A DNA stretch of 43,815 nt. Source: a virus. The notes beneath the pieces are model-generated. The model was not told where the DNA came from and did not search any database. It saw only the letters and a program-made list of their open reading frames with translations. The DNA lies in IMG/VR virus record IMGVR_UViG_3300017744_000024, positions 1-43,815 of that record. One strand, given 5' to 3'. The position numbers and the translations under genes were made by a program. This document shows positions 1,096 to 15,242 of the stretch, one piece after another. The number at the start of each line of letters is the position of its first letter. Positions within the stretch are counted from its first letter, which is position 1.

Positions 1096-1170
1096 TCACC
1101 TTACATTATTCATAAGTTCTTCGTCGGTTGTACCACGGTTTGTCCTGCTGAATCTGGTCGGATTCTGCAT
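1096..1170 (-). CDS. Possible 24-aa leader peptide ORF upstream of fibre gene
   Basis: This is a 24-codon ORF (begins MQNPTRFSRTNR, ends TGA at 1098-1096) in the gap between two fibre genes. Its ATG lies 6 bases after a late-type motif GATAAATA (1184-1177), so the predicted transcript would start within a base or two of the ATG and be leaderless. There is no Shine-Dalgarno sequence. It could be a real micro-protein, a leader peptide for the fibre gene 50 bases further on, or chance. I recognise no family. Confidence 0.3.
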   Translation of the reverse strand: MQNPTRFSRTNRGTTDEELMNNVR

Positions 1171-1176
1171 TAGTAT

Positions 1177-1184
1177 TATTTATC
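1177..1184 (-). promoter_or_regulatory. Candidate T4-type late promoter (GATAAATA)
   Basis: The minus-strand octamer GATAAATA differs at one base from the T4 late consensus TATAAATA recognised by gp55-RNA polymerase. It lies in the gap before the fibre gene starting at 1046 and 6 bases before the 24-codon ORF. It fits position and class, but a single octamer in A+T-rich DNA is weak evidence alone. Confidence 0.45.
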
Positions 1185-1221
1185 GGTCTTTTGGTATTAT
1201 ATTGTACAAGGTTAATTTATA

Positions 1222-4200
1222 CTAGTTTAATATGAGGTTGTAAACCACATTGAGATCTTCCGCAATTTCGTCTGTAACTGTTACAGATTGCACACCAATA
1301 GAAGAAACCCAACCATCCACTGCTCCAGCATATACTTCTAAAAGACCACTGTCTGAGTTCCACCATACTGCTCCTAGTCTAGGAGTGATAGCATCACGTT
1401 GTACAGTTGTTCCAAATGGTCCTATATATCCGTTGGTTGACTCAAATTGTACTGTTCTGTTTTGTTTTAAACCTGTTCCTGTGAATGTGATATCTTGGTT
1501 GACGACTTTGTTCTCAATAGTTGCCCCAGAAACTTCAAGATTAGCAGTGTCTAGCACCACTTTCCCCGTTCCGTTTGCTGTGAAACCTGCTTGTGGATTT
1601 GAGGCACTACCCACACCTATTGTGTTGCCATTAATTGAAATCTGATCTTGACTAGCAAACTTAGGTACAATTAAGTTACCTGCACCGTCTATTTCACCAG
1701 CATATCCATTGGCTGTGTAAAAAGTAAATTTGTTACTGCTTAAATCAATATTAGTGTCTCGGTCACCATCTTTTATTCCATTCAGTGCTATTTTACCTGT
1801 TGAAAATAATTCAAATTCATTTATACTTGAATCAAACCTTACAGCATTTCCTTGATTAGGATTTTGTGCTGTGGTTCCTGATGGTAGAGATAGATGACTT
1901 GTGGAGTTGATTATTGTGTTAGTTGTTCCTCCACTAAATGCAACATCTCCTGATGCAGATGATATATTTGTTTTGAATCCAACAGTGCCTAAATTAACTT
2001 TACCTGTACCGGTTGCTCTTAATTCTAATTGTGAATTTGTGTCTGTGGTTTGAATAGTGTTATTGTGAATATCAATATTATCTAAAGTTATTCTTGATGA
2101 ATTTGTTTCTTTCCAATTTTTTGTTGCACTACCTATATTGCTTTGAGTATCTTGACTTGGTAATAAATCTTGTTCAAAATCCATTGCAAAATTTACAGTG
2201 TCTCCAGCATCATTTCCAAAATTTAATCCTGATCCACCTATTGTGGCATTACCTGTGATATCAACTTTAGGCATCAAAACATTTGCAGTTAAATTTACAG
2301 CATTGGATGATCCAACAGCACCTATTGAAAGACTGTTGTTTAATGTTTGGATTGTGTTGTTTGAAATTCTAAAATTTGGTACATCTATTTTTGTAGCATC
2401 AACAAGAGTTTCTTTACCTTGTACACCAACTGTTAATGTTGACGCACCTAATTCACCATCATTCACTGCTATCGACGTTGTACCTTTTCCTAAATCTACA
2501 ATAAAATTATCGCCAACTCTAAAATCTCCGCCTTGGTCTTGACTTACAAAATGAACTCTTGCATTATTTGTTGTCACAACTTCATTAGTTTGATCAATAG
2601 TGTCCACATCATTTTCTACATTTTTTCCTGAACCAACATAAGCAAAATTATGACTGATTAGATATGCTAAACTTCCGTTTCCATCTGCTACAACACCTTG
2701 ATTACCATATATTGTTGCACTTGCAATTACTCTTGCTTCGTTCATTGTGCCTTCTGTTACAGCATTTGCAGTTGCACTTTTAAATAGGTGTGCTGTTACG
2801 TTGCTTGATATACCAACGTTACAAGTAATAGATGTAGCAGTTGTTTCTGTGATTGTAATCTTTTTAACTGAATAAGGATCTGATGGTCTTGGGTAAGTGT
2901 GATCTGTTGCATGACCATCCATAGCACACGTGAAAGTTAAACTGTTGTCTGCAATAGTAATTGTTTCGTTAACTCTTATTGAGTGGTTGCCAATAGTTAA
3001 AGTCATTACACCAGTTGCAGGATTATAACTTCCTGCTGTTGGCGTGTATTGATTTAATGTGTGTTGTAGATACAAACCTCTATTTGCAAAGTAAGTAAAG
3101 CAATTGATAAACTCAATTCTTGATCCGTTTTTAACTGTTACTGCATCTGCACCCGGAGTAATAAATGTAACCATATTGAATAACATTGATGTTCTTGGTG
3201 ATGCTGTATCTAAAACATTGCTATCTACCAATGCACCTCTACCTGCATCTCCTGAATCAAATCCTCTTGGGTCAGTTGCTGTTCGTGTGTCTCCTTGTGT
3301 TACCACTGAAACATTTTGTATGTATGGTGATTTTGTAACAATACCGGCGTTGTCAGAAAATCTAAAACCGTAACCACGATCAGTGTTTGCATCATAATGA
3401 AAATCTACAATACTTAAATCAGAAACGGAAGACGCATCGTTCATTAAAAATGCATCTTGATATCTATTAGGCACATCTGGTTTAATTGTAACTGATCTTA
3501 TGCCGGTACCTTTTACAGTTACGTTTGCTGGTACTTCTAATGGAAATTGTTCTGTGTATGTGCCAGGTAAAATGTGTAGTTCATGTGGACCTGCTGTGCT
3601 TTCTTCAATGTATGCCAATGCATGACGTATTGTTCCAAACGCAAAGTTAGGGTGATTACCTGCTAATAAATCAGTACCGTTGGTACTCACATACCATTTA
3701 TTTTCAATACCTAAGTTAACAGCAACACCTGATAAAGAAATTGTGTTATCGATTGTGATATCATTCAAACCTGTCATGGTTTGTACGTGCATATCTCCCC
3801 AACGCTGACCATTAGAACCTATATCATAAGTTCCAGTTACGTCAGGAATTAAATCTGATTCAATGTCACCTTTAAAACTTAAAGTATCTTCTGGACCATC
3901 ACCACCTATAAAAATATTTCCATCAAAAGAAATATCTCCTGTAGCATGAATATTTCCTGTTGTGTTTAGGTCTGATGGAATAATCATTTTACCTGTACCA
4001 GGTCCTGGTTGAAATATGATATCCTCACCATTGTATGCTCTTATTCCACTGTTAGTAAATGCTAAATTACCTGTGCGTAATTCAGTCATTTGAAATTTAG
4101 TAGTGGCATTCATGTTGATAGGTCCAGTCAATGTTGAAAATGTGTTTGTTGGACCGTCTATATCAATGTTTCCAATTGATGCGGAGTTTGTGGCAATTAA

Positions 4201-4386
4201 ATCGCCTCTGTAGATAGCATTGCCTGTTACTTGAAAATCTCTTGTGGGAGCGGAGTTCTTGACACCTATTCTACCGTTGGTGTGTCCGATGAATAAAAGA
4301 TCCGTTTCAAAAGCCAAATCCGACGTTCTTGTAAGATTTTCTTTTAATAATGGTCCTGATATTCTACCTACATTGGTTACTGCCAT
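1222..4386 (-). CDS. Large tail-fibre-like protein with beta-helix domain
   Basis: The product is 1,054 aa. The N-terminus (about residues 1-60, MAVTNVGRISG, then LAFETDLLFIG) is shared with the truncated fibre at 1-1046 and probably forms the attachment domain. Residues about 230-420 (NKWYVSTNGTD, HILPGTYTEQFPLEVP, GIRSVTIKP) resemble a pectin-lyase or DUF1565-like beta-helix. Fibre motifs GTGKV or GTGKM recur, for example LELRATGTGKVNLG and NGTGKVVLD. The C-terminus contains WWNSDSGLLEVY, typical of marine T4-like phage fibres. The start at 4386 has GGAG 4 bases upstream and a late-type motif 17 bases upstream. The role is inferred to be a host-contact fibre or wedge-attached structural protein. 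No enzymatic residues are evident. Confidence 0.8.
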   Translation of the reverse strand: MAVTNVGRISGPLLKENLTRTSDLAFETDLLFIGHTNGRIGVKNSAPTRDFQVTGNAIYRGDLIATNSASIGNIDIDGPTNTFSTLTGPINMNATTKFQMTELRTGNLAFTNSGIRAYNGEDIIFQPGPGTGKMIIPSDLNTTGNIHATGDISFDGNIFIGGDGPEDTLSFKGDIESDLIPDVTGTYDIGSNGQRWGDMHVQTMTGLNDITIDNTISLSGVAVNLGIENKWYVSTNGTDLLAGNHPNFAFGTIRHALAYIEESTAGPHELHILPGTYTEQFPLEVPANVTVKGTGIRSVTIKPDVPNRYQDAFLMNDASSVSDLSIVDFHYDANTDRGYGFRFSDNAGIVTKSPYIQNVSVVTQGDTRTATDPRGFDSGDAGRGALVDSNVLDTASPRTSMLFNMVTFITPGADAVTVKNGSRIEFINCFTYFANRGLYLQHTLNQYTPTAGSYNPATGVMTLTIGNHSIRVNETITIADNSLTFTCAMDGHATDHTYPRPSDPYSVKKITITETTATSITCNVGISSNVTAHLFKSATANAVTEGTMNEARVIASATIYGNQGVVADGNGSLAYLISHNFAYVGSGKNVENDVDTIDQTNEVVTTNNARVHFVSQDQGGDFRVGDNFIVDLGKGTTSIAVNDGELGASTLTVGVQGKETLVDATKIDVPNFRISNNTIQTLNNSLSIGAVGSSNAVNLTANVLMPKVDITGNATIGGSGLNFGNDAGDTVNFAMDFEQDLLPSQDTQSNIGSATKNWKETNSSRITLDNIDIHNNTIQTTDTNSQLELRATGTGKVNLGTVGFKTNISSASGDVAFSGGTTNTIINSTSHLSLPSGTTAQNPNQGNAVRFDSSINEFELFSTGKIALNGIKDGDRDTNIDLSSNKFTFYTANGYAGEIDGAGNLIVPKFASQDQISINGNTIGVGSASNPQAGFTANGTGKVVLDTANLEVSGATIENKVVNQDITFTGTGLKQNRTVQFESTNGYIGPFGTTVQRDAITPRLGAVWWNSDSGLLEVYAGAVDGWVSSIGVQSVTVTDEIAEDLNVVYNLILN

Positions 4387-4402
4387 AGCACTCCTTTTTT
4401 AG

Positions 4403-4410
4403 TATTTATT
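4403..4410 (-). promoter_or_regulatory. Candidate late promoter (AATAAATA)
   Basis: AATAAATA on the minus strand is followed about 12 bases later by AAGGAG and the ATG of the large fibre gene at 4386. The distance gives a short conventional leader. It has one mismatch to the T4 late consensus. Confidence 0.5.
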
Positions 4411-4427
4411 GAAATTTGGTAAAGGAA

Positions 4428-5225
4428 TTATTTGTCAAAGTTGTGTAAAACAGTGACTGGTTTACCTGTTGGAACTGCTGTTCCAAATGTAATATATTGT
4501 CCTGATGGGTAAGATAATCCTGTTACAGAACTTTTTCCGTCCATGTTAAATGTGTTTCCACCACCAAGGTTTGCTTCAGTATTCAACAAAGTGTTTACAC
4601 TTAAATGAGTAGGTGTTACTGCTGTTACTGTTTTTGTTCCGTTATTAGTGGCAGATCCTGTTACAACAACTGTTTGTCCAACATGATATCCTTTGGATTG
4701 CCAATCAATCAATGCGGCATTTGAACTAACATAAGCACCAACGCCTGTTGAATTGTAATTTGCCACAGCACTTACTATATTACTGTTTACATCACATGGA
4801 TTTTGTGTTAATGTGTAGTTAGTGTTTGGAATTTGTAAAACGTTTTCCACCATTACTAAAACATTTTCTGACGCAGTTGGATAACCCAATCCTGATCCAA
4901 ATCCATCATTTAGAATTCCAAAGTTTACTTCTGTGTCATCACCATTACTTAAATTTTGTACTACAATGTTTTGTGGTTCTGATAATCTAAATTGTTTCCA
5001 TACTGGAGCGCCACCGCCTAATGACTCATACACTTCAAGTTGTCTTAATGTTGTGTTGAATCTCAATTGTCCTTCAATGGGTGAAGTGGGACGTTGTACT
5101 TGAGTTCCTTTTGGAACTAAAAATGCACCTGTTGATTGTGCTTCAATTGTTTCGTACTGAGTGTATATTAAACCTTTACCGTTTAATAATCTTTTATTAG
5201 TTGATTGACGTTTTAAATATCTCAT
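4428..5225 (-). CDS. Virion structural (fibre-like) protein
   Basis: The product is 265 aa. It starts MRYLKRQSTNKR. Residues about 38-70 hold GTQVQRPTSPIEGQLRFN followed by LEVYESLGGGAPVW. This segment (P-x-G-x-LRFN with LEVY and W) is the small repeat-like module common near the ends of phage fibre and tail proteins. A similar WWNSDSGLLEVY is present in the next gene. The rest is beta- and Thr/Asn-rich with no recognised enzyme motif. It overlaps the upstream gene stop by one base (TAATG), indicating translational coupling. I infer a fibre or fibre-accessory protein. Confidence 0.65.
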   Translation of the reverse strand: MRYLKRQSTNKRLLNGKGLIYTQYETIEAQSTGAFLVPKGTQVQRPTSPIEGQLRFNTTLRQLEVYESLGGGAPVWKQFRLSEPQNIVVQNLSNGDDTEVNFGILNDGFGSGLGYPTASENVLVMVENVLQIPNTNYTLTQNPCDVNSNIVSAVANYNSTGVGAYVSSNAALIDWQSKGYHVGQTVVVTGSATNNGTKTVTAVTPTHLSVNTLLNTEANLGGGNTFNMDGKSSVTGLSYPSGQYITFGTAVPTGKPVTVLHNFDK

Positions 5226-5551
5226 TACACCTCCAAGTAACTTACTACAACTGAAAGATTGTTATTACCTGACTGAGCAACTTTGATAACGTCTCCAGCA
5301 CCCAACACTATTTTTTCTGAATCTAGTGTGAATGTTTCTGCTCCCGGTAATAATGCATTGTTAACTATCATAGATTGGTTTGCAATGTAGGCTCCAGTCA
5401 CTGCATACAAAGTGAAATTACTATCTTCTCCACCTGTAGCATCTTCTGGACCAACATTTGTGATCAATATAGATGTAACAGCATAACTTTTACCTGCAGG
5501 TACTGTAAGAACATCTTGTGTTCCATTTACGTTTGCGTTTGTTATTGCCAT
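5225..5551 (-). CDS. Small virion protein, unknown
   Basis: The product is 108 aa, starting MAITNANVNGTQDVLTVP. The composition (VPAGKSYAVTSILITN, then ADVIKVAQ-type ending) is like small beta-sandwich proteins found between fibre genes of marine phages. The ATG has AAAGGAG upstream. Its stop overlaps the start of the next gene by one base. I recognise no named family. Its place in a fibre operon suggests a virion component or fibre-assembly accessory. Confidence 0.6.
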   Translation of the reverse strand: MAITNANVNGTQDVLTVPAGKSYAVTSILITNVGPEDATGGEDSNFTLYAVTGAYIANQSMIVNNALLPGAETFTLDSEKIVLGAGDVIKVAQSGNNNLSVVVSYLEV

Positions 5552-5561
5552 TGTTTCTCCT

Positions 5562-6584
5562 TTAAAAAATTAATCCAAAAAGTAGTGCTCTATTCTTGCT
5601 GATCACTTCTCCTCTTATGTCATTTGTATTTACAAAATATAATCCTGTATCTCCTCCAGATGGTGTTTTTGCATACAATTTAACGCCGTTGGCGTCATAT
5701 AACGGGTCTACAGCAGAATCTTGCACACTTGGTCTATTGCCGATCACGAAGGAATCATTTGCCCTTACAGACCCTGTTCCTGGTGCTACCAATTCTAAAT
5801 CTTGGTTTGAATTAAGACTGCTGATGGTATCACCTTCAATTCTAATACTACCAATATCTGTTGTTTGTTGATACAATTCAAATCTATTTGGCTCCCATAA
5901 TCCTAATAATGTTCCATCAATAGTAACTTCTATTTTTGATGTTTGACCAGATGTACTGTTGTCTGTGATTTTTACTTCTGTATCACCTTGAACTATTCTT
6001 GGAAAAGCCGCACCGATTACAACAGCATTGATTTCATCATCCACATATTTTTTATTTGGAATATCATTGTCATCACTCATTCTGCTGATGTAGTTTGCTG
6101 GAGCAATACTGGCTCCTAATCTTAAAGTACCAGTTCCGCCTGGCTCAAAATATATTGCATTGTTGTTGTTGATGTTGGCAACTCTTAATGCTAAAATGTC
6201 GTTGCCGTCTGATGAAGAAACTTTGTATGAACCATAACCAGGTCCTTGTAAGTTTGGTCCTTGTGAAACTGTTTGTGTGCTTGGATTGTTCCATGCAATA
6301 GATTCATCATAAATTATTGCCACATCATTAAGTGTTCCTCTATCAATCTCTATTCCTGCTTGGTAATTTTTAACTGCATTTATTCCTGGACTTGTTTCTC
6401 CAGAATTCAAAGTAATAATATTGTCTGTGATAGTGGTAACAGTAGACTCAACTGTTGTAGTTGTTCCTTCTATTGTTAAATTACCTTTTACTAAAGTTTC
6501 TGTGGCATCTAACTCGATTTTATTCGAGGCATCTGCTACTTTAATTTTGTAATCACCTTTTTCTAAATAAACTGTTTTTGCCAT
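5562..6584 (-). CDS. Tail-fibre-like structural protein
   Basis: The product is 340 aa. The N-terminus (MAKTVYLEKGDYKIKV), the TLVKGNLTIEGTTTTV stretch (about 30-50) and the TTITDNIITLNSGET segment (about 50-67) match the style of marine T4-like fibre proteins. Two GTG motifs (FEPGGTGTLRLGA, VAPGTGSVRAN) recur with a spacing like that of the larger fibres, so it is probably a shorter member of the same modular family. No Shine-Dalgarno sequence is obvious upstream. Instead an 11-bp hairpin (6597-6622) ends 12 bases before the ATG. The function in adsorption is inferred from context. Confidence 0.7.
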   Translation of the reverse strand: MAKTVYLEKGDYKIKVADASNKIELDATETLVKGNLTIEGTTTTVESTVTTITDNIITLNSGETSPGINAVKNYQAGIEIDRGTLNDVAIIYDESIAWNNPSTQTVSQGPNLQGPGYGSYKVSSSDGNDILALRVANINNNNAIYFEPGGTGTLRLGASIAPANYISRMSDDNDIPNKKYVDDEINAVVIGAAFPRIVQGDTEVKITDNSTSGQTSKIEVTIDGTLLGLWEPNRFELYQQTTDIGSIRIEGDTISSLNSNQDLELVAPGTGSVRANDSFVIGNRPSVQDSAVDPLYDANGVKLYAKTPSGGDTGLYFVNTNDIRGEVISKNRALLFGLIF

Positions 6585-6596
6585 AGTTTTTTATAA

Positions 6597-6622
6597 TTTA
6601 GGGAGTGTTGCCACTCCCTAAA
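6597..6622 (-). other. Strong hairpin between structural gene and fibre gene
   Basis: There is a perfect 11-bp stem (TTTAGGGAGTG with CACTCCCTAAA). Read on the minus strand the loop is GCAA, a GNRA tetraloop. It lies in the 50-base gap after the gene at 6635-7093. The downstream sequence on the minus strand (TTATAAAAAAC) has no T-run, so it is not a textbook terminator. RNA processing or stabilisation, or an attenuating role before the fibre gene, are alternatives. Confidence 0.6.
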
Positions 6623-6634
6623 CTGTATTTTATA

Positions 6635-7093
6635 TTATGCGTCTGCTGTGAAGTCGTCGTCATCTGCGTTAGCAACGTCGTCATCACCTGCTTCTTCAAC
6701 TTTAACTGAACCAGTCGCCGCCGCGGCAAATCCCCATGCTTGTTTCAAGCCGTCTAGAGCATTTGTACCTGTGGCACTTGGTTTAGCAAGTGTTAGAGTA
6801 CGTCCTGAAATTTTACTTACACCGTAAGTTTCTGCATCAGAACCTTGTACTGATATTGACATTTCGCCTGCACTTAAAGCCGCTGGTAATACACCAGTCT
6901 TTAATACACACGTAAATTCAGTATCTGTGGCACCAGTTTCAGCAACTACGAATTTTTTAGATCCTTTTTGTCTGACAATAGTACCTTCTACAACTGCTCC
7001 ACCATTGTGAAAGTTTACTTTTATTTCATTTGCACCGGCAGTTGCACCGCCAGCCGCTGTTGTGAACAGTCTTTTGTTAAGTGGTCTTCCCAT
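6635..7093 (-). CDS. Virion structural protein (MGRPLNK family), function unknown
   Basis: The product is 152 aa. It starts MGRPLNKRLFTTAAGG, an N-terminus I associate with a small structural protein seen next to the capsid and fibre genes of marine T4-like phages. It is Ala/Gly/Thr-rich, with KFVVAETGATDTEFTC in the middle and an acidic tail (DDDVANADDDDFTADA). The start has AGGAGA close upstream. It is preceded by its own late-type motif and a roughly 100-base structured leader, suggesting high late expression. It might be a head-decoration or fibre-base protein, but nothing in the sequence decides this. Confidence 0.65.
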   Translation of the reverse strand: MGRPLNKRLFTTAAGGATAGANEIKVNFHNGGAVVEGTIVRQKGSKKFVVAETGATDTEFTCVLKTGVLPAALSAGEMSISVQGSDAETYGVSKISGRTLTLAKPSATGTNALDGLKQAWGFAAAATGSVKVEEAGDDDVANADDDDFTADA

Positions 7094-7198
7094 TTTTTTT
7101 CTCCTATAAAGTAGTCCTATCCGGGTTCTATCCGGTACGCAGTGGGTTTATTACTGCATAAGTCTTTGACATAGGTCAAAGTACGTTTGAACTAAAGG
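7094..7198 (-). promoter_or_regulatory. Structured 5' leader of the MGRPLNK structural gene
   Basis: This is the roughly 100-base leader between a late-type motif and the ATG at 7093. It contains a perfect 7-bp stem with 4-base loop (7164-7181, CTTTGAC with GTCAAAG), a 5-bp stem (7139-7157, GCAGT with ACTGC), and a direct repeat of CTATCCGG at 7117-7124 and 7128-7135. The Shine-Dalgarno AGGAGA follows. It may stabilise the mRNA or control translation. Confidence 0.5.
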
Positions 7199-7206
7199 TA
7201 TTTATC
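7199..7206 (-). promoter_or_regulatory. Candidate late promoter (GATAAATA) overlapping a stop codon
   Basis: The octamer GATAAATA on the minus strand includes the TAA stop (7204-7202) of the 90-aa ORF. It would restart late transcription for the downstream structural gene immediately after the hemB cassette. Confidence 0.5.
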
Positions 7207-7474
7207 GTTTGCTGAGTGATGCTATCAGTTCAACTTTTGAGAACTTTTTTGCTAGGTTTATGGCTTCTATTAGCACAGAATTGGCTTCTTCTAGGTATCT
7301 ATCTTTTTTAGTTCTACGGTAATCTATTAAAATAGTGGTGTATTCATCATACATTTTGTTCATTGTGTTTTCTAATTTTTTAATATCGTTGATGAATATT
7401 CCATGATTGTTTTTCCATACTTGTATTCTATCCATATATTCTCGAAATTCTAATAATATTTTTTCGTGTTCCAT
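7202..7474 (-). CDS. 90-aa hypothetical protein in hemB cassette
   Basis: The start chosen is the ATG at 7474, one base after the HemB stop. A longer reading from 7489 would overlap HemB by 14 bases and adds only five residues. The protein is mostly charged and predicted helical (MEHEKILLEFREYMDRIQ, KLENTMNKMYDEYTTILIDY). It has no membrane segment, cysteine motif or recognised family. It sits last in the lipoprotein-hemB unit, so it may belong to the same accessory module. No Shine-Dalgarno sequence is obvious, consistent with translational coupling. Confidence 0.55.
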   Translation of the reverse strand: MEHEKILLEFREYMDRIQVWKNNHGIFINDIKKLENTMNKMYDEYTTILIDYRRTKKDRYLEEANSVLIEAINLAKKFSKVELIASLSKR

Positions 7475-7475
7475 A

Positions 7476-8276
7476 TTAAATTTTACCAATTATGTCTCTT
7501 GCTCCGTATGTTACTAAAAATTTAGCACCTGCTTTGCGATACACTTTAGCAATTTCTATTTGATGCTCTATCGTGGGCAATCCTTTGTATTCATCACTCA
7601 CTTGATACAATCCTACTGGATTATATGTGCTGATGGATATCATGCTTAATTCATTCAAACTGTGTTGTGCTGGTTTAAGTAGGATATAATCTGCTTTTTG
7701 TGTTTTAAATTTATTTGCTGTGGCAGTCATTCCTGAATCACCGTTGATAGGCAATTGATATGTTCTTTCAGTGGTTGGGGTACTGTCTGCAAGATCTCTG
7801 AATGAACTGTAAAACACACTTCGATATTTCACATATGCCATCACTTCACAGTTGGTTTCTGCTTTTAAATTTTGCACTGTATTATCTCCCATGTCTGATG
7901 GAGCCAATATGTCTGCACCTGCTGATTCTAATTTCTTACCCAAATCAATCAACAATGCTTCACTAGTGTCTGGTTTATCCATCACTCTACAATGTCCATC
8001 TGGCAAAGTAGAACACAAACATACATCTACAATTAATTGTATTTTAGGAAATTTTGTTTTTATTTGATTTACAATTCTTTGATTAAAACTCCAATCAGGA
8101 GTCCAAGTTTTATATTGTGGTGTGATAAACAACAAGAAACTGTCAACACCTTTGTCTACATCTTGTTGTATCTGATCGTTAATTAAGATTTCGGAAAAAC
8201 TACTATTGTGGACGCCTAATCCAGCCGTTTCTGTTCTGCCTTTTTCGTTGACAAACAATGGCTGGATTAAGTCCAT
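7476..8276 (-). CDS. hemB: Delta-aminolevulinic acid dehydratase (porphobilinogen synthase)-like protein
   Basis: HemB condenses two 5-aminolevulinate molecules into porphobilinogen, the first common step of tetrapyrrole (heme, siroheme, cobalamin) synthesis. The family signatures are in order: DLIQPLFV (residues 2-9), zinc-type motif DVCLCSTLPDGHC with Cys86, Cys88 and Cys96 (CxCx7C), AGADILAPSDMGD (119-131), first Schiff-base Lys150 in YVKYRSVFYSSFRD, RTYQLP (171-176), second Schiff-base Lys201 in LLKPA, YQVSDEY (224-230) and LVTYGA near the C-terminus. Cys and Lys spacing is close to the family's. I chose the ATG at 8276, 5 bases after the lipoprotein stop. Upstream in-frame codons to 8384 lie inside that gene and look non-homologous. 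At 266 aa it is shorter than usual (about 320-340) and lacks the N-terminal arm used for oligomer assembly. It is probably active in the host cytoplasm, but that is unproven. Confidence 0.85.
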   Translation of the reverse strand: MDLIQPLFVNEKGRTETAGLGVHNSSFSEILINDQIQQDVDKGVDSFLLFITPQYKTWTPDWSFNQRIVNQIKTKFPKIQLIVDVCLCSTLPDGHCRVMDKPDTSEALLIDLGKKLESAGADILAPSDMGDNTVQNLKAETNCEVMAYVKYRSVFYSSFRDLADSTPTTERTYQLPINGDSGMTATANKFKTQKADYILLKPAQHSLNELSMISISTYNPVGLYQVSDEYKGLPTIEHQIEIAKVYRKAGAKFLVTYGARDIIGKI

Positions 8277-8280
8277 CTGA

Positions 8281-8484
8281 TTACTTCTCTTCTTTTTTAG
8301 GAAGTGCCGCACACTGTTCTTCGTCTGCTGGCAGACCAGTGTTTTTATCATAGATCCAAACATACGAATAAGTGATGTTGTCATCAGTCATTGAACATTT
8401 TTTTCCAAATGATACTCTTGGTTCTTTAATAGAACAAGCCGACACTGTGAAGAAAGTTAATATTAATATTGCAATACTTTTCAT
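8281..8484 (-). CDS. Small phage lipoprotein
   Basis: The product is 67 aa. I chose the ATG at 8484 because it is preceded by AAGGA and gives a proper lipoprotein signal: MKSIAILILTFFTVSACS, with a lipobox (VSAC) and the acylated Cys at residue 17. An upstream in-frame start at 8541 would add 19 residues across the promoter and is unlikely. The mature part is about 50 residues, has two more cysteines and a charged end (PKKEEK). It is the first gene of a cassette with its own sigma70-type promoter. Small phage lipoproteins often alter the host envelope (for example superinfection exclusion), but no family match is visible here. Confidence 0.7.
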   Translation of the reverse strand: MKSIAILILTFFTVSACSIKEPRVSFGKKCSMTDDNITYSYVWIYDKNTGLPADEEQCAALPKKEEK

Positions 8485-8512
8485 TGTAGTCCTTGTTAGT
8501 GTTTCCTCAATA

Positions 8513-8541
8513 ATTATACAACATTTTGGTATAAAAGTCAA
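8513..8541 (-). promoter_or_regulatory. Sigma70-type promoter for the lipoprotein-hemB cassette
   Basis: On the minus strand TTGACT (8541-8536) is followed by 17 bases and a perfect TATAAT (8518-8513). The transcript would start about 7 bases later and lead into the lipoprotein gene at 8484. It stands directly downstream of the gene 23 terminator and differs in type from the late motifs of the flanking structural genes. Confidence 0.8.
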
Positions 8542-8561
8542 GTCCTGAACAAAAAGTCAAT

Positions 8562-8586
8562 AAAAAAGGGGGCCGAAGCCCCCTTT
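8562..8586 (-). terminator. Rho-independent terminator of the gene 23 unit
   Basis: On the minus strand GGGGGC, loop TTCG and GCCCCC are followed by TTTTTTA, with flanking AAA/TTT extending the stem to 9 bp. The C(UUCG)G-closed loop is the classic extra-stable terminator loop. It sits 24 bases after the gp23 stop. Confidence 0.9.
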
Positions 8587-8609
8587 AATATGTAAGTGTT
8601 TACTGTTGA

Positions 8610-9782
8610 TTATGCAAACGAAATGTTTGACATAGTAACTTCACCAACGTAGTCCCCAGCATTACCAAGTGATGATGCTGTGTTGTTTAACTCTACATAA
8701 CCATATCTAGTCATGAAAGAAACAACTGGTTCAAAAGTTGATGGGTCAAGCACAACACCGCTAGACATTAACGGAATGTATGGGCAATAGAACGCCGCCG
8801 CATCTGCTTCAGATGAGCCTTTGTATCCTACCAATACAGACGAATCGTCTGCCGCATATGTGTCAACATATACTTTCATTGCACTGTTTAAAGTTCCAAC
8901 CATTTTTTGGTTAGTTGGTGCTTCAAAAGAACCTTCAGTTGTTCTTGCGAACGCTGAAGTTGTTGCAGATTGAAGTACAGTTAAAGCCTGTGGTGATACC
9001 ACAGCCCAGTTTCCTGCGCCTCTTCTTGTTCTTTGTGCAATTTTGTTTGCTACTCTGTTGATTAAAACAGCCAACGCCGCGTGTTCATCGCCTACGAAAG
9101 TCGCAGTTCCTGAAACAGCCGCTTGGTTGAATGCTTCTTCATCAGCCGCTAAAGATCTTAATGAGTTGATTACTTCTTGGTCGATTTCAGCAGTAATTTC
9201 TTGTGCTAATGCCGCCATGATTTCAGCCTCTACATCAATACCTTGTTGCGCCTGAGCATCTTGAGCAGATTCAAATGTCCATCTTGCTTGTAACTTTCTG
9301 CTTTTTGCTTCAACAGTTTGTTTCAAGATTTGGATTGACATCGCTCTACCACCAGTACCCTCTTTCGATGCTGTTGCATCTCCTTTAGAGTCTGTTGTGT
9401 TACCTGAATAGGCTTGACCAATTTTAAATGGTGATAAAGCCTCATCGCCCGCTGTAACATCATCGCTGTTGATAGTCGCGTTTTGTGTTTCTGCATATCT
9501 TACTCTTAACGTGTGGATTTGACCAACTGGGCCAGTCATCGGTTGTACTCCAACCAATTCATTAGCAATCACAGTAGGCATAACCCGTCTGATCACCGGT
9601 AGGATCACTCTGTTTAAAGTTGCAACGTTACCGGCAGATGTAGCACCTGCTGTTGCTGACTCTGAAAGATACTGTTTAGTATTTTCTAAAGTAGCCGCCA
9701 TAACTGCTTTTTTATTTCCAGTTAGACCTTCTAATAACGCACTCTTTGTGTCCTGCCAGCGAGTTTCTGTTAGTTCTGACAT
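8610..9782 (-). CDS. 23: Major capsid protein gp23
   Basis: The product is 390 aa, the T4-like major head protein that forms capsid hexamers. Core family segments are visible: VILPVIRRVMPTVIANELVG followed by VQPMTGPVGQIHTLRVRYAE (about 59-97), the INSLRSLAADEEAF region and the RTRRGAGNWAVVSPQAL region. The C-terminus holds FMTRYGYVELNN. The propeptide carries a likely gp21 cleavage site at YLSE|S (after Glu41), matching the (I/L)xE rule and placed just before the conserved core, as in T4. LLE|G at about residue 18 is a second candidate. It is the last gene of the head operon gp67-21-22-23 and is followed by a strong terminator. Confidence 0.97.
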   Translation of the reverse strand: MSELTETRWQDTKSALLEGLTGNKKAVMAATLENTKQYLSESATAGATSAGNVATLNRVILPVIRRVMPTVIANELVGVQPMTGPVGQIHTLRVRYAETQNATINSDDVTAGDEALSPFKIGQAYSGNTTDSKGDATASKEGTGGRAMSIQILKQTVEAKSRKLQARWTFESAQDAQAQQGIDVEAEIMAALAQEITAEIDQEVINSLRSLAADEEAFNQAAVSGTATFVGDEHAALAVLINRVANKIAQRTRRGAGNWAVVSPQALTVLQSATTSAFARTTEGSFEAPTNQKMVGTLNSAMKVYVDTYAADDSSVLVGYKGSSEADAAAFYCPYIPLMSSGVVLDPSTFEPVVSFMTRYGYVELNNTASSLGNAGDYVGEVTMSNISFA

Positions 9783-9802
9783 TGTTATTTTCTCCTTTTG
9801 TT

Positions 9803-10891
9803 TTAGATTCCAGCAAGTCTTCTAATATCAACGATGTTGCTATTGAATTGACTGCCGTTTACAATGTTAATTTGTTTATCGCCTGTTACTTCTGTGCCTT
9901 CATTTATTGCCTGTTTTTTCGCTGGAGTCCTACCGTTTAGAACAGCCGGTATGTACTTTTCGAATTGCTTTCGTAAAGCACCCGTCTGCACACTCTCCAG
10001 TAGATTGTTCATTATTTCTTTTTGTTCTGCATTCAATGGTTGTACTAACTCATTGATTACGTCACTTCTCTCTGCCGCTTCTTTAATTGTAGCAATTTCT
10101 TTTTCTTTTGCTTCAATTACTTTTTGTTTCTCGTCGACAGTCTTCTTCGCTTCTTCCGCCTGTAGTTTCGCTACGTCCACTACTTTAAGAAGTTTTGCTG
10201 TTTCACCTTTTTCGTTCAAGAATGATTGTGAATATTCTTGTTGATAAGATTCAAACAGTCTGCGACCAAAGTCGTTTTTGCGAGCCGCTTCAATGTCTTC
10301 TTTTAATGAACTAATCTCTTGTTTAAGAGTTTTGCCCACTACTTCTGACACTTTCTCAGCACCTTTTTTCACAAAGTTACTTCTAACTTTTTCAAAATGT
10401 GCTTTTGCTTCTCTGATAAGACGTACTTTTGTTTCAGCAACGTCTTGTTTGTCTTTTTGAAATTCTGCAATTTCTTTAGACAGAGCTTCTACCACGAAGT
10501 CCTCAAGTTTAACAAAATTTTCTGCCATAACTTTTTGGTCTGAGTGTAGTTCAGCAACTTCGCCTTTAAGTTGATCAAAAACAAATGCTTTTAACTTTTC
10601 AGTGTGTTCACCGATTTGAGTAGCATACTTAACTTTTTCTTCTGCAAGTTGCTTCTTGTCTTCTGCGAACTCTGCCATTTCTGCTTCGATTCTTTCAGAT
10701 ACCATTTTATCAACAGCGTCTGTCAAACTTGCTTTGTCGTGTTCATACTTCTCTGCAAATTCTTTACGAAGATCAGCAGTGGCAGAAAGTTTGTTTTCTT
10801 CAACCTTCTGGGTCCATGCGGATTCTATTTCTGCTCTGATCTCTTCCGAAATTCCGTTCGTTTCAAAAAGTGATTTCAGTGCTTCTAACAT
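9803..10891 (-). CDS. 22: Prohead core scaffolding protein gp22
   Basis: The product is 362 aa. It is almost entirely charged coiled coil (Glu/Lys/Ala-rich from about residue 20 to 290) with the family N-terminus MLEALKSLFETNGISEEI. The C-terminal part (NLLESVQTGALRKQFEKY, then IPAVLNG) is the best conserved block. It forms the internal scaffold around which gp23 assembles, and is digested by gp21 on maturation. Candidate cleavage sites matching (I/L)xE followed by a small residue include LLE|S and INE|G near the C-terminus. It lies between gp21 and gp23 as in T4, with AGGAGAT before its ATG. Confidence 0.95.
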   Translation of the reverse strand: MLEALKSLFETNGISEEIRAEIESAWTQKVEENKLSATADLRKEFAEKYEHDKASLTDAVDKMVSERIEAEMAEFAEDKKQLAEEKVKYATQIGEHTEKLKAFVFDQLKGEVAELHSDQKVMAENFVKLEDFVVEALSKEIAEFQKDKQDVAETKVRLIREAKAHFEKVRSNFVKKGAEKVSEVVGKTLKQEISSLKEDIEAARKNDFGRRLFESYQQEYSQSFLNEKGETAKLLKVVDVAKLQAEEAKKTVDEKQKVIEAKEKEIATIKEAAERSDVINELVQPLNAEQKEIMNNLLESVQTGALRKQFEKYIPAVLNGRTPAKKQAINEGTEVTGDKQINIVNGSQFNSNIVDIRRLAGI

Positions 10892-10901
10892 TCTTTATCT
10901 C

Positions 10902-11525
10902 CTATTTAGATTGGAGTTTTCCAATTATGTTTATTAGTTGTTCTTTTAGATATTTTTGTGCCTGTGTGTCCCTTGCTGAGTTAAATGCTTTTAAACCACC
11001 CTTTGTGTTCATTAGATGTTCGTATATTGGCTCAGGATATGCTCCTGGCGCCGATGGTTGTGCAACGATATCTACTGTGATGATTTCAAAATCTGATACT
11101 TGTCCGGATCCGTCTTCTTTAACATTACCCGAACCCCTGGATGAAACACCAAGTTTAACTCCGCTTTCCAGCATTGTTTTAACAAGTTGTCCCATCGGGG
11201 TTGGTAAAATTTTCATTTTTCCGTATCCGTTCGGTCCGTCCATCCACATTTCATTTACCATGTGTGATACACGATCTAGGTTAATATTAAGGCCTTCTGG
11301 ATGATCAACTTCGCCGAGAACACTGTATCCACCAGTGACTTGATCGTTAAGTGTGCTGACAGCCCTCTGGATTTCGTTAACAGGATACACTCTTTGGTTG
11401 GCGTTTTTAACACCTCCCTGAATGCAGATTCCCTTCATGTAAAGGGATTTACCGTTGTGTTCGTCCTTAGTCTCAACGACTATTCCCGCCTGGTCGAAAG
11501 TTAGCGTCTCACGTAATGATAACAT
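10902..11525 (-). CDS. 21: Prohead core maturation protease gp21
   Basis: The product is 207 aa. This serine protease of the herpesvirus-assemblin-like fold cleaves the core and capsid proteins during head maturation. Visible signatures are a catalytic His in LGEVDHPEG (His75), a Ser in KLGVSSRGSG (about residues 128-129) and the following VSDFEIITVDIVAQPSAPGA strand. Length is close to T4 gp21 (212 aa). The C-terminus contains an IYE motif that could be a self-cleavage site. It is followed by gp22 and gp23, the canonical order. Confidence 0.95.
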   Translation of the reverse strand: MLSLRETLTFDQAGIVVETKDEHNGKSLYMKGICIQGGVKNANQRVYPVNEIQRAVSTLNDQVTGGYSVLGEVDHPEGLNINLDRVSHMVNEMWMDGPNGYGKMKILPTPMGQLVKTMLESGVKLGVSSRGSGNVKEDGSGQVSDFEIITVDIVAQPSAPGAYPEPIYEHLMNTKGGLKAFNSARDTQAQKYLKEQLINIIGKLQSK

Positions 11526-11547
11526 CCGTTTTCCTTATACTACCTTA

Positions 11548-12558
11548 TTAACTGCCAATAGTTGACTTTGCAGAAGAATCATCTTCTGTGCTAGTCTTGG
11601 CCTTTGGTGCCGCAACAGGTTTCGCTTTGCCACCTGGTACATTAATGTTACCTGCGTTTTCTTCTTTTGGAGCAGGTGCTTTACTACCTGTTTCCTCACC
11701 ACCTTTAGCGATGTTAGAAGCCGTTCCGCCCATATCATTTTTGCCAGCAACTGGTGATTTAGAGTTATCTGAACCATCTGTATGCGTTACGCCTACTTTG
11801 TTCACATATTCTCTAATTTCTTCACTTGCTGTTTTAGGTTCTGCTGTTTCTACTGCTGGTTGTTCACCAAGTTCAGGAGCAACTTCTACAGTTTCTCCCT
11901 CTGCTGATTGATCTACAACGGCTTCGTCTTCTTTTTCTTCACCGTTATCTTCAGCGTCGTCGCCTTCAGCGTCGTCGCCTTTGTCCTCATCGCCCATCAT
12001 TTTTTCAAATTCGGCTTTAAGGTCATCAATAGCATCTTCTAGGTCAACTACTCTGTCTTCGATTTCTTCTTCACCTTTTTCAGAGTCGTCGCCGTTGTCC
12101 ATGTCACCTGCTGGTGCTTCGATGTCAGCAACCATATCGTCTGTTGCGTCTCCACCTACTTCAACTGCTGGTGCTACTTCTTGATTTTCTATATCTAATA
12201 AAGACTCATCTGTTGCTTCTTCATCTTTTGACTCTTCTTCTTTAGTTTCTTCTTCTTTTGAAGTTTCGTCTTTTGATGCTTCTTCAACTGCTTCGTCTTC
12301 TTTTGACTCTTCTGAAGTTTTTTCTTCAACTTTTTCGTCTTCTTTTGCTTCTTTAGACGCTTCTGTTGTTTCTTCTTCTTTTGAGTCTTCTTTTGAAGTT
12401 TCTTCTACTTCGATATCTTTGATATCATTTTCTAAAAGACCTTCATAGATTGATCTTGATTTTTCCACAACGATATCATGGAAAATTTCTTCTGCCGCTG
12501 TTCTATCGTCAGCGACTAATTTTTCAAGCATTTGCTCGAATTTACTTTTATCTGACAT
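11548..12558 (-). CDS. 67: Acidic prohead core protein, gp67-like
   Basis: The product is 336 aa. The N-terminal 45 residues form a helical unit (FEQMLEKLVADDRTAAEEIF, then HDIVVEKSRSIYEGL). A very long Glu/Asp/Ser/Lys low-complexity region follows (about 48-240, with many SKEE-type repeats). The tail is Gly/Pro/Lys-rich. T4 gp67 has the same plan, a short helix then an acidic tail, but is only 80 aa and lies between gp20 and gp21 as this gene does. A likely gp21 site IYE|G falls right at the helix/acid junction. Assignment rests on plan and position, not on strong identity. The DNA of the acidic region is a biased TTC/TTT repeat tract (about 12190-12420), likely prone to length change. Confidence 0.65.
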   Translation of the reverse strand: MSDKSKFEQMLEKLVADDRTAAEEIFHDIVVEKSRSIYEGLLENDIKDIEVEETSKEDSKEEETTEASKEAKEDEKVEEKTSEESKEDEAVEEASKDETSKEEETKEEESKDEEATDESLLDIENQEVAPAVEVGGDATDDMVADIEAPAGDMDNGDDSEKGEEEIEDRVVDLEDAIDDLKAEFEKMMGDEDKGDDAEGDDAEDNGEEKEDEAVVDQSAEGETVEVAPELGEQPAVETAEPKTASEEIREYVNKVGVTHTDGSDNSKSPVAGKNDMGGTASNIAKGGEETGSKAPAPKEENAGNINVPGGKAKPVAAPKAKTSTEDDSSAKSTIGS

Positions 12559-12601
12559 TGTTTTTCTCCTATTAACTGTTTATGATAAGACTGTCATGTA
12601 T

Positions 12602-12609
12602 TATTTAAC
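12602..12609 (-). promoter_or_regulatory. Possible late promoter (GTTAAATA) for the head operon
   Basis: GTTAAATA on the minus strand is about 43 bases before the acidic core protein start and downstream of a small hairpin (12637-12652, GGGTC with GACCC). It has two mismatches to TATAAATA. A promoter is expected here because the upstream gap is the only sizeable one before 67-21-22-23. Confidence 0.3.
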
Positions 12610-12636
12610 CGATAGGTGAAAAAACAGGTAGATAAT

Positions 12637-12652
12637 GGGTCGATACTGACCC
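12637..12652 (-). other. Small hairpin after the 195-aa ORF
   Basis: GGGTC/GACCC forms a 5-bp stem with a 6-base loop, extendable by weak pairs, 14 bases after the stop of the 195-aa ORF. On the minus strand a TTTTTT run follows about 10 bases later, so it is at best a weak terminator. Confidence 0.35.
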
Positions 12653-12666
12653 GTTTGACGCAGATT

Positions 12667-13254
12667 CTATAAATGATAGCGTCTTTTGAACTCTTGTACA
12701 GTGATTTCACTGTAATTCGTAAACTTCTTAAGGTCTTTAGCCTCAAAAACATCAGTACCTTCCGGTACTATTCGTATATATCTCTTTAGTGGATTCTTCT
12801 GTAGGATAATGCTTGTTTGCCGGTTCCAATTGCCGTGATAGGTGGCAGTGTCTGAATTCTTTTTGTAGTTGGGTGTATCGCCATATATGTTGTTCAGTTT
12901 GCCCTCAGTGGTGCCTGTGAAGTCAAAACCCAACAAATATATCAATTGATGCATATTTTTTGATGCTAACCACAGTGCTGTGGGTCCTGATGACCATCCT
13001 AGGCTGGGTTCGAAGAAGTTTAACCCTTTGTACTTTTTATATGCTCTGTTTGGATTGGTCCATACTGGCATATTGAACTGAGCACCTGCTAGACAGATCT
13101 CATTGATCATCTTGGCATCCACTGCCACTAGGTAATTGGGTGTGTAAGTTCTGTAAACAGCATTGCAGGCATACACTTTGCCAAACTGTTGTAAGGGTTC
13201 TAGGGGAACTGGTTTGCGACTGAGACCATTGCCTAATACAAAAGCAATAGACAT
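12667..13254 (-). CDS. Head-cluster protein with GT42/MptE-like Rossmann features
   Basis: The product is 195 aa, with no assigned function. Visible motifs are a glycine-rich N-terminal loop (FVLGNGLSR, 5-13), YACNAVYR (28-35), VAVDAKM (43-49), a central SSGPTALWLAS (88-98) and IYLLGFDF (105-112). This order (GNG-S loop, CNxxYR, then SG-x-x-AL and IYLLGFDF) resembles CstII-type sialyltransferases (GT42) and DUF115/MptE-like proteins, which bind CMP-sugars or pterin/nucleotides. That similarity is from pattern recognition only. It lies between the portal and the core genes. The upstream 79-aa ORF ends 3 bases before its start, so the two are probably co-translated. It could modify a head protein or a surface glycan, or be a non-catalytic relative. 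Confidence 0.6.
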   Translation of the reverse strand: MSIAFVLGNGLSRKPVPLEPLQQFGKVYACNAVYRTYTPNYLVAVDAKMINEICLAGAQFNMPVWTNPNRAYKKYKGLNFFEPSLGWSSGPTALWLASKNMHQLIYLLGFDFTGTTEGKLNNIYGDTPNYKKNSDTATYHGNWNRQTSIILQKNPLKRYIRIVPEGTDVFEAKDLKKFTNYSEITVQEFKRRYHL

Positions 13255-13257
13255 TTA

Positions 13258-13497
13258 TTACATTTCCGGTTGGTTAGCGGCGCCGTACATCTGTCTCACA
13301 AAGTCCAACTCTTTTTGTTGTTCGTCTTTGTGAAATTCACCGGCTTTTCTTGCTTTGTTGATCTGTTTCAATGACAGTCTAGTTTTACGTGTGTCGTCTA
13401 AAGACATAATAGACTGATCAGCAGTGGCATCGTATTGCTTCTGCTCACCTGGCTCTGTTGTTATTTGATCGTAATAAAAAAGTTCACGTAATATCAT
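13258..13497 (-). CDS. 79-aa head-cluster protein, unknown
   Basis: The product is 79 aa, starting MILRELFYYDQITTEPGEQK, with a basic middle (DDTRKTRLSLKQINKARKAG) and a helical C-terminus (LDFVRQMYGAANQPEM). It has no membrane or metal motif. It occupies the place of the small core genes (67/68) behind the portal gene in T4, but I see no clear similarity to gp68. A perfect TATAAATA late motif ends 5 bases before the ATG and there is no Shine-Dalgarno sequence, predicting a leaderless mRNA. Confidence 0.6.
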   Translation of the reverse strand: MILRELFYYDQITTEPGEQKQYDATADQSIMSLDDTRKTRLSLKQINKARKAGEFHKDEQQKELDFVRQMYGAANQPEM

Positions 13498-13502
13498 AAA
13501 AT

Positions 13503-13510
13503 TATTTATA
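13503..13510 (-). promoter_or_regulatory. Perfect T4 late promoter (TATAAATA)
   Basis: An exact match to the T4 late consensus on the minus strand, ending 5 bases before the ATG at 13497. In T4 the octamer spans about -13 to -6, so transcription would start at the A of this ATG. Confidence 0.7.
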
Positions 13511-13511
13511 C

Positions 13512-15242
13512 TTACTGGCCCGGAGTTGGCGTTCCGCCACCTGTGCCACCTGTATCTCCTGCTGGAGTTGGAGTGCCTGTGTTGTCTGCAGGATCACCTG
13601 GTTCTTCTGCTGGTTCCGCCGCATCTAAATCTGCTTGAATACCTGCTGTGCTAACTCCTGCACTTCTCAATTCAGTTGCTGAAGTGGTTGGTTTAGTTTG
13701 CATAGAGTCATCATTTTCTTCTCTCCACATTCTTTCGTTTTCTGCCATCTCTTCTGGAGTTAATCCTAAGAATCTAGACAGAGCATAACGTTTGCTAACA
13801 AATGGCACTGTTGCTATTTGCGTGTATGTGGAAATTCTGTTGTTGTCTACTTCTGCTTGTCTGTAAGAAGCAAAGTTCATTGGTGGTTGAAACTTGATAT
13901 CAAACATTGCTGTGTCAATGTTCACACCTTTTTCTAAAAGGTAACGTTTGAACTCTTGATTAAATTCATCTGATACTAAATTTTGTAGTCTTTCACAGTA
14001 TTTGTTGAACCTTAGTTCTTGAATGTATGCTGTTCCTACTCTGCCATCATTGAAACTGCTTTGCGAATCGTCTGCACCTGTTGGCAAATATGAACTTGGT
14101 ATTCTTAAACCTCTTAATAATTTGTTTGTAAAGTATTTTAGGTCATCAATCTCACCAAGGTTAGTACCGCCTGGTAATGTTTCTACTTTAGAACCTCTTC
14201 CTTCTGCTGTTTGTGGAAAGAAATAGTCCTCGTTGATTGAAAGTGGATTATAAGAACTGTCTACTACGTTTGTTCCACCACCTGTTGATGAAGGAATACG
14301 TCTTTGATGAATTTCTGTTTTAACTCTTTCCACAAATTGCATTGCCAAGTGACTTGGCATATTACCTACGTCAATGTAAAACACTCTTCTTTCAGGTGCT
14401 CTTTGTACTCTGTAGATTATAATTGCGTCTTCCAGTAATTCTTTTTGTTTGTAAACTTTAAAAATGCTTTCCAACAGTGAATTACCAAACGGAAAGTTGT
14501 TGTCCAGTCCTTCACTTAAACTTAAATGTACCATGTGGTCGGCATCAACAGCAATTTCTCTTTGTCCTGTGCCAAATCTTGTTCCTGGTGCTGATGTATT
14601 GTCCACTCCAGTCATTCCTCTTACTCCGCCAGTCAAATATCCTGATCCACCGCCAGTAACATTGCCTGTTGTTTGATAAGGTGTAGTTGCTACAAGACTT
14701 TTAAAGTTAAAATTGATATCTTTTATAACATATTGCTCAGGAGTTTTACCTGTGCTTTCATTTACAATTATTTTTGTTACTTTTGCTGGATCAACGTGAA
14801 ACATTTTCTTTGTTTCCGGATCTCTAATAAAGAATGCATCACCATACTTGAATACGTTACGCATAATCTTAAACACACGTTTAGAAAAGTCGTTCATTTT
14901 GCACCATTGGTGCAGGTATTGTTCTATGATTTGTATTTCTGTATTAGTTGCTTTCTGATTGTATTCAAATTTGAATGGTGTATTGTTTTGTGTATTGTTT
15001 TGTGTGCAAAATTCTGCTAGGATATCCAATGCGGCATTCACTTCTGAATCTAAATCCATCACATTGTATTGTCCGTATCTTTCAATTCTGTTTGGTGCAC
15101 CGCTGTACACATCTGGAAGATATGATGAGTAGTTTGTTTTGGCTGGTCCAGCCTTTCCACCTACTCCACCACCTAAAGGTGAATTCATTCCGCCTGTGCC
15201 GTCTGATAGTGGCACTTCTGTAAAATATTTTTTCCAACTCAT
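13512..15242 (-). CDS. 20: Portal vertex protein gp20
   Basis: The product is 576 aa (T4 gp20 is 524). The dodecameric portal nucleates head assembly and is the DNA channel. Family blocks seen are ERYGQYNVMDLDSEVNAALD followed by ILAEFCT (about 54-80), QRAPERRVFYIDVGNMP and EDYFFPQTAEGRGS. KYFTNKLLRGLRIPSSYLPT and then ADDSQSSFNDGR come later in the order typical of T4-like portals. The extra length is mainly a low-complexity Pro/Gly/Thr tail of about 40 residues. The gene start overlaps the tape-measure stop by one base (TAATG). Confidence 0.96.
   Translation of the reverse strand: MSWKKYFTEVPLSDGTGGMNSPLGGGVGGKAGPAKTNYSSYLPDVYSGAPNRIERYGQYNVMDLDSEVNAALDILAEFCTQNNTQNNTPFKFEYNQKATNTEIQIIEQYLHQWCKMNDFSKRVFKIMRNVFKYGDAFFIRDPETKKMFHVDPAKVTKIIVNESTGKTPEQYVIKDINFNFKSLVATTPYQTTGNVTGGGSGYLTGGVRGMTGVDNTSAPGTRFGTGQREIAVDADHMVHLSLSEGLDNNFPFGNSLLESIFKVYKQKELLEDAIIIYRVQRAPERRVFYIDVGNMPSHLAMQFVERVKTEIHQRRIPSSTGGGTNVVDSSYNPLSINEDYFFPQTAEGRGSKVETLPGGTNLGEIDDLKYFTNKLLRGLRIPSSYLPTGADDSQSSFNDGRVGTAYIQELRFNKYCERLQNLVSDEFNQEFKRYLLEKGVNIDTAMFDIKFQPPMNFASYRQAEVDNNRISTYTQIATVPFVSKRYALSRFLGLTPEEMAENERMWREENDDSMQTKPTTSATELRSAGVSTAGIQADLDAAEPAEEPGDPADNTGTPTPAGDTGGTGGGTPTPGQ

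Follow-up and report, generated by a model that had tools for sequence, protein, structure and literature searches.

A candidate moron-like cassette with an arm-less porphobilinogen synthase homologue behind the capsid gene of a T4-like phage

Why should a virus carry hemB, a gene of tetrapyrrole metabolism, among the genes for its own head and baseplate, and from which promoter is such a gene read? The question arises on the virus contig IMGVR_UViG_3300017744_000024, analysed here over positions 1–43,815 (43,815 nt, the whole stretch of DNA, referred to below as the window), in which a hemB locus sits on the minus strand within the late structural block of T4-like head and baseplate genes. 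A moron consists of extra genes, with a promoter and a terminator of their own, lying between phage genes that are adjacent in relatives, and the original prediction, made from the letters of the window, had described the hemB locus as a moron inserted into the late operon and expressed early. The reading that we consider probable is that of an auxiliary metabolic cassette, moron-like and insulated, which a T4-like phage carries and which would raise the flux from 5-aminolevulinate (ALA) to porphobilinogen.

The elements on which the prediction drew, namely the terminator, the promoter, the open reading frames (ORFs) for a lipoprotein, HemB and a 90-residue protein, and the late motif overlapping the last stop codon, are all present in the sequence where it had placed them, and the anatomy of the cassette is near certain. 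In the direction of transcription, the locus reads as follows.

8610–9782, minus strand: major capsid protein (MCP, gp23-like), left neighbour outside the cassette, phrog_138 with E 7.6e-100; the gp23 stop codon is at 8610.
8565–8586, minus strand: upstream boundary, formed by the intrinsic terminator that ends the capsid unit, from the terminator scan; relatives have a like arrangement right behind MCP.
8513–8541, minus strand: sigma70-type promoter TTGACT-17-TATAAT with CCAAAAT in the spacer, 11/12, kept in 62/62 assessable relatives.
8281–8484, minus strand: small lipoprotein-like protein, 67 residues, with a lipobox-like VSAC and conserved C30 and C58, from the ORF and an alignment.
7476–8276, minus strand: predicted arm-less zinc-type HemB, or porphobilinogen synthase (PBGS), 266 residues, from PF00490 (142.3 bits), residues, a structure model (pLDDT 94.3) and PDB matches.
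7202–7474, minus strand: 90-residue three-helix protein, from the ORF and a structure model; its ATG lies one base past the hemB stop codon.
7199–7206, minus strand: late-promoter-like GATAAATA of the next virion gene and downstream boundary, found in all 61 relatives with the 90-residue gene and the stretch behind it.
7091–7181, minus strand: freshwater-2 RNA (RF02980), which scores 74.1 bits against a gathering score of 49.9 and forms the leader of the next virion gene.
6635–7093, minus strand: g6635, next gene of the structural operon and right neighbour, kept behind MCP in relatives; it has no PHROG match.

The terminator of the capsid unit, AAAGGGGGC-TTCG-GCCCCCTTT (8586–8565), ranked first in the terminator scan list, and at the other end of the cassette GATAAATA (7206–7199) overlaps the stop codon of the 90-residue gene. 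The cassette has a GC content at third codon positions (GC3) of 0.27–0.28, inside the range of nine neighbours (0.18–0.36), and an overall GC content of 0.29–0.35 against 0.35–0.44 in the neighbours.

Was the cassette inserted at this place? Viral contigs were searched with HemB, the 90-residue protein, MCP and HemF as queries. Besides the window, 68 viral contigs carry a HemB of the window type (36 and 17 from HemB searches; 13 from the search with the 90-residue protein, namely L240–L249, L266, L270 and L271; and two, L285 and L286, from the HemF search), 65 of them in the cassette context and three in hemF-hemB operons. The MCP search contributed its best 80 loci, to which the counts of near-empty and filled junctions refer. 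g6635 lies behind MCP in 37 of these loci, one of which is a HemB carrier, and the other 36 comprise 14 near-empty junctions, with MCP and g6635 only 85–214 nt apart, and 22 with other DNA; NATAAATA precedes g6635 in 12 of the 14 and in 20 of the 22. A Pfam scan of ten larger ORFs that follow MCP in HemB-less loci gave five with a match, to an ammonium transporter, a radical SAM/SPASM protein, a porin, an HNH/NUMOD endonuclease and, weakly, a GDSL lipase, and five without. Among HemB-less relatives, the ammonium transporter lies at 8174–9376 in L074, the radical SAM/SPASM gene at 7766–8836 in L110 and the porin gene at 7360–8349 in L094. Near-empty sites and varied cargo together mark the junction behind gp23 as an insertion hot spot. 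This comparison shows the cassette to be an insertion, flanked by the capsid-unit terminator and by the late promoter of the virion gene that follows, into a junction near-empty in many relatives, and the predicted insertion into the late operon is thus borne out. Orthologues do lie at the same place in relatives, yet the cassette boundary is conserved with them, and the prediction is not overturned on this account. Since the cassette holds the same place in 65 contigs and its GC3 falls within the range of its neighbours, it is old rather than a recent arrival.

Did the cassette come with its own promoter? TTGACT-17-TATAAT (8541–8513) is the top sigma70-type match in positions 1–20000 of the window. 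Sigma70-like matches show no excess there, with 46 observed against 55.9 in shuffles, and the case for the promoter therefore rests on its conservation in relatives. The extended pattern TTGAC-N7-CCAAAAT-N4-TATAAT occurs once in the window, with zero mismatches, where shuffles expect 0.16 occurrences at up to three mismatches. Promoter scoring covered 66 contigs, 65 with the cassette context and L148 without it, and four were left out of the count, namely L148 and three contigs that end before MCP (L145, L154 and L168; the printed scores of L145 and L168 do not come from the true upstream stretch). All 62 assessable cassette contigs have, directly 5' of the first cassette gene, a promoter that matches at 10–12 of 12 positions, starts with TTGAC and holds CAAAA in its spacer. 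Many cassette contigs are near-copies of one another; the lipoprotein-led form has 26 distinct upstream sequences (three with score 10, 15 with 11 and eight with 12), and the hemB-led form, in which the promoter stands immediately before hemB, has eight, with scores of 10–12. The promoter also stays beside the lipoprotein gene in contigs with extra ORFs between that gene and the MCP terminator (L038, L144, L152 and L240) and likewise, despite intervening ORFs, in L039 and L241–L249. Mononucleotide shuffles of the lipoprotein upstreams score at least 10 in 3.1% and at least 11 in 0.25% of cases, and a looser promoter pattern, run over 13 records, gave 17 matches, ten of them at the cassette, against one for the reversed pattern. 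Near-empty junctions and a promoter conserved beside the cassette thus argue for an insertion with a promoter of its own, and by the same comparison the sigma70-type promoter is inherited with the cassette.

Host RNA polymerase would read such a cassette without need of the late sigma factor, probably from an early stage of infection, and early expression is plausible, judged by the class of the promoter. A different timing, in which HemB is active, the cassette is expressed late or is constitutively leaky, and the sigma70-type promoter is used sparingly or not until late, so that HemB acts near the end of infection, seems to us unlikely. The position of the cassette within the late structural block would suit such timing, as would the TAAATA-type motifs that stand in front of the 90-residue gene in six of the six contigs where it occurs without a neighbouring HemB; the promoter, however, is near-consensus, kept over a large divergence, directly before the cassette and behind a terminator. 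The adjoining virion genes, moreover, are mostly without such sites: within cassette loci the 100 nt before MCP, g9803, g10902, g5225 and g6635 score 9 at most, save for one MCP upstream at 11, and scores of 10–11 are found in three of 34 g5562 upstreams and a score of 10 in three of 27 upstreams of the 90-residue gene.

Two further observations concern promoters of this type. Some other loci have strong sigma70-like sites behind MCP, an example being L063 (12/12). In the long contigs L275 (1582–4180) and L276 (1303–3898), a second TTGAC...CAAAAAT...TATAAT promoter follows right after a 289-residue ORF and leads into a 111-residue ORF and two ORFs of about 270 residues, a region that is possibly another insulated cassette.

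Is the HemB of the cassette still an enzyme? It matches PF00490 (ALAD) with E 2.4e-41 (142.3 bits, cut-off 24.6), and its AlphaFold model is a PBGS barrel for which all 50 listed PDB matches are PBGS, with TMq up to 0.91. When mapped onto E. coli HemB, for which we take the roles and numbers of the residues (the two Schiff-base lysines and the active-site set) as given, all 20 viral HemBs agree at D118, C120, C122, C130, S165, Y192, K195, R205, Q220, K247 and Y312 (E. coli numbering). Thus 11 of the 15 mapped active-site positions are invariant in the 20 viral sequences, and three vary in one or two of them; the column for R216 was off by one, and the adjacent arginine, R171, is invariant in the 21-row alignment. 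The window HemB has both Schiff-base lysines (K150 and K201) and the zinc cysteine triad (C86, C88 and C96), and catalytic and zinc residues are retained down to 38% identity. Ratios of nonsynonymous to synonymous substitution (dN/dS) are 0.10–0.23 for HemB (15 pairs), 0.11–0.18 for MCP (6), 0.06–0.23 for the 90-residue protein (15) and 0.04–0.42 for the lipoprotein (10), values that point to clear purifying selection on viral HemB.

The viral protein shares with zinc-type PBGS/ALAD (HemB, PF00490) the fold, both catalytic lysines, the zinc cysteines and most active-site residues. It differs from cellular PBGS in having no N-terminal arm (the barrel is preceded by 0–3 residues in 20 of 20 viral HemBs and by 25–63 in 17 of 17 cellular ones), shorter loops, a length of 266 residues against 317–365 in the cellular sequences used, about 30% identity and a separate clade. 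By its sequence it is a zinc-type PBGS with the catalytic residues kept and the arm missing, and it likely functions as such.

Company kept by hemB elsewhere bears on the same question. L148, a 48-kb contig with UvsX-like, DnaB-like and primase genes, holds an operon (5564–8372) of OMP decarboxylase, hemF, hemB and heme oxygenase, and hemF-hemB pairs lie in L285 (848–2442) and L286 (4001–5604), the latter checked with Pfam; the HemBs of L148 and L286 group within the viral clade. These operons are the best evidence that members of the viral HemB clade do tetrapyrrole chemistry. The HemF search returned 15 loci, the contig of L148 itself among them, and in the six further hemF records that were searched, besides that of L286, HemB was absent from all six. 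In L289 (236–6179), SbcD-like and SbcC-like genes are followed by hemE-hemF-hemC and then by a SegE-type homing endonuclease gene, and hemC recurs in the L293 and L294 records.

No description of a phage hemB was found in the open-licence literature, and hemB is not named in the main text of PMC11480375. According to that paper, a phage ALA synthase (vAlaS), which catalyses the step before HemB and is accompanied by heme oxygenase and bilin reductase, is active and, as its authors report, lacks a heme feedback site; the paper also mentions suggestions that cyanophages, pelagiphages and phage metagenomes contain heme and B12 genes. The vAlaS-HemO-PcyA/X cassette is likewise a phage tetrapyrrole cassette, its vAlaS makes the substrate of HemB and it too looks deregulated; the cassette described here differs in that HemB is paired with a lipoprotein and a 90-residue protein, and the partner genes of vAlaS were not found in the cassette contigs searched. 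The HemB cassette is thus a variant, with HemB, of a known kind, the phage tetrapyrrole genes.

Several results weigh against a cassette that raises porphobilinogen production. The bit scores of HemB, 125.5 and 90.9, fall short of the NCBIfam PBGS equivalog cut-offs of NF006762 (297) and NF009923 (507). Its arm is missing, while in characterised PBGS the arm serves assembly; PMC535902 states that octamer and hexamer differ in the N-terminal 24 residues and that the arm takes part in assembly. Usually conserved residues near the active site are changed in some relatives (Y270 to F in L144 and L152, S273 to G in L032), and F204 is W in the HemB of L148. Heme oxygenase was not found in five HemB-cassette records, which are fragments, nor in the HemB-less G002, and neither HemC and ALA synthase nor HemF was found in 13 cassette records, again fragments. 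On the cassette strand the terminator scan found no terminator between the 90-residue gene and the next gene, and read-through into virion genes is possible. Finally, L044 has the cassette promoter and the lipoprotein gene, and in the 242 nt that remain to the contig end no HemB is encoded.

The missing arm (20 of 20) and the low equivalog scores, together with a 90-residue gene that is present in all 62 cassette contigs holding the hemB end, would also suit a HemB that is a former PBGS, makes no porphobilinogen and serves in binding, sensing or structure, perhaps with the 90-residue protein. We think this distinctly improbable, given that catalytic and zinc residues have been kept across such divergence, that members of the same clade stand in hemF-hemB operons and that the 90-residue gene is also found without HemB. 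The last point concerns six contigs with the 90-residue gene at the junction (L097, L251, L258, L260, L272 and L273); for L097, the only one of the six searched in full, the whole record yielded no HemB. The idea of the 90-residue protein as a dedicated partner of HemB is weakened by the same six contigs, and its structure model gave no significant fold match.

Do the three genes form one unit? The six contigs and L044 indicate that they do not, and although the gene set was rightly seen as an insertion, it is not a fixed three-gene unit. L044 (6919–7477) is a close relative whose lipoprotein gene diverges in its second half, and recombination or loss of HemB is possible there. In most cassette contigs the lipoprotein gene is the first behind the promoter, and from other small phage lipoproteins comes the idea of superinfection exclusion. 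Thus the lipoprotein might be the main point of the cassette, HemB and the 90-residue gene riding along, which the promoter and lipoprotein gene of L044, with no HemB behind them, would also fit. This we regard as very unlikely, since HemB is under clear purifying selection and the search used did not find the lipoprotein gene in 13 of the 65 context contigs, in 11 of which, those with MCP and promoter, the promoter leads straight into hemB. The lipoprotein itself had no notable match in PHROG, Pfam or the phage collection.

Where did the gene come from? By MCP, the nearest named phages infect Vibrio, Sinorhizobium, Pseudomonas and Erwinia, and they are T4-like and very large. The viral HemBs form one clade, on a branch with 100/100 against 17 and then 18 cellular sequences, in trees of 20 and 23 viral representatives with none from SAR11 and most phyla absent among the cellular ones. 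Six representatives were chosen from one set of 20 loci, L191 was dropped by a motif filter, and the HemB of an Acinetobacter phage record was counted as cellular by its neighbours. A SAR11 origin is unsupported, given the MCP relationships and the zinc type of the HemB. Leptospira, a long branch in the tree, gave no donor assignment, and scans of genome contigs for a cellular donor gave none and one match of 30%.

HemB matches in the named phage collection reach 33% identity at most. In L208 (CAKLQH020000030.1), deposited as an Acinetobacter phage, hemB stands beside genes for gamma-glutamyltranspeptidase, an efflux pump and sbcCD, which has the look of a bacterial chromosome, and the annotated hemB of named phage records is likely contamination, as judged from this one of the two annotated records. 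Such distant matches and bacterial-looking neighbours might suggest that contamination or mis-assembly had also put a host hemB into the contig studied here. That is extremely improbable, for the gene is surrounded by T4-like head and baseplate genes, has the same context in 65 further contigs, and belongs to a viral clade of its own lacking the arm that all 17 cellular sequences mapped have; contamination was rejected for the HemB family of the cassette.

Downstream of the cassette, structural transcription would have signals of its own. ATAAATA occurs seven times in the window, less often than in shuffles (mean 14.5), always on the coding strand and no more than about 130 nt ahead of a gene start; two copies, at 13503 and 24056, stand so close to the start codon, with just a few bases between, that they leave no room for an ordinary leader. 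A gp55-like late sigma factor is encoded in the window (23150–24001; phrog_12791, E 3e-79). The late motif stands behind the 90-residue gene in 61 of 61 contigs holding that gene and the stretch behind it, L165 ending too early. Just after the motif comes the freshwater-2 RNA, which holds this position in 11 of the 14 relatives that were scanned, both with and without HemB, and was not called in L097, L100 and L148. The RNA folds better than shuffles (z -4.0) and may serve T4-like phages as a leader of late genes; a literature search on it found nothing.

How far, then, does the cassette resemble a moron? It has extra genes, its own promoter and a junction that is near-empty in relatives; in contrast to a moron, it shows no GC3 contrast, has been kept over a long divergence and has no terminator of its own that could be found. 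The predicted boundaries thus stand as regards the promoter (62 of 62 contigs) and fail as regards the terminator, the upstream one being that of gp23 and none being found downstream. As a host-type metabolic gene kept by selection in 68 further viral contigs, hemB qualifies as an auxiliary metabolic gene.

In the infected cell, HemB would condense two molecules of ALA to porphobilinogen, and this output would raise or maintain the supply of tetrapyrroles, most likely heme. More tentatively, the enzyme without its arm might escape the octamer/hexamer control to which the cellular form is subject, a deregulation comparable to that of the published phage ALA synthase without a heme feedback site, and the lipoprotein and the helical 90-residue protein may have their targets in the envelope or elsewhere in the host. 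A more far-reaching proposal holds that this is a PBGS lineage of the phages' own, without arm and octamer/hexamer control, that a resident 90-residue protein was co-opted to assemble or activate HemB, and that T4-like phages jointly carry a large part of the heme pathway in scattered pieces (hemB, hemC, hemE, hemF and heme oxygenase); taken as a whole, we hold it to be doubtful.

If the reading of an insulated auxiliary metabolic cassette is true, viruses would control the tetrapyrrole step common to heme, siroheme and B12 with a form of the enzyme that is without the known assembly switch, and its expression would be driven by a host-type promoter shielded from the virion genes. The arm-less PBGS would offer a chance to learn the purpose of the arm. 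The junction behind the capsid gene, near-empty in 14 loci, with the 90-residue gene and no neighbouring HemB in six contigs and with HemB in 65, offers a natural series for studying how a phage acquires a metabolic gene and insulates it.

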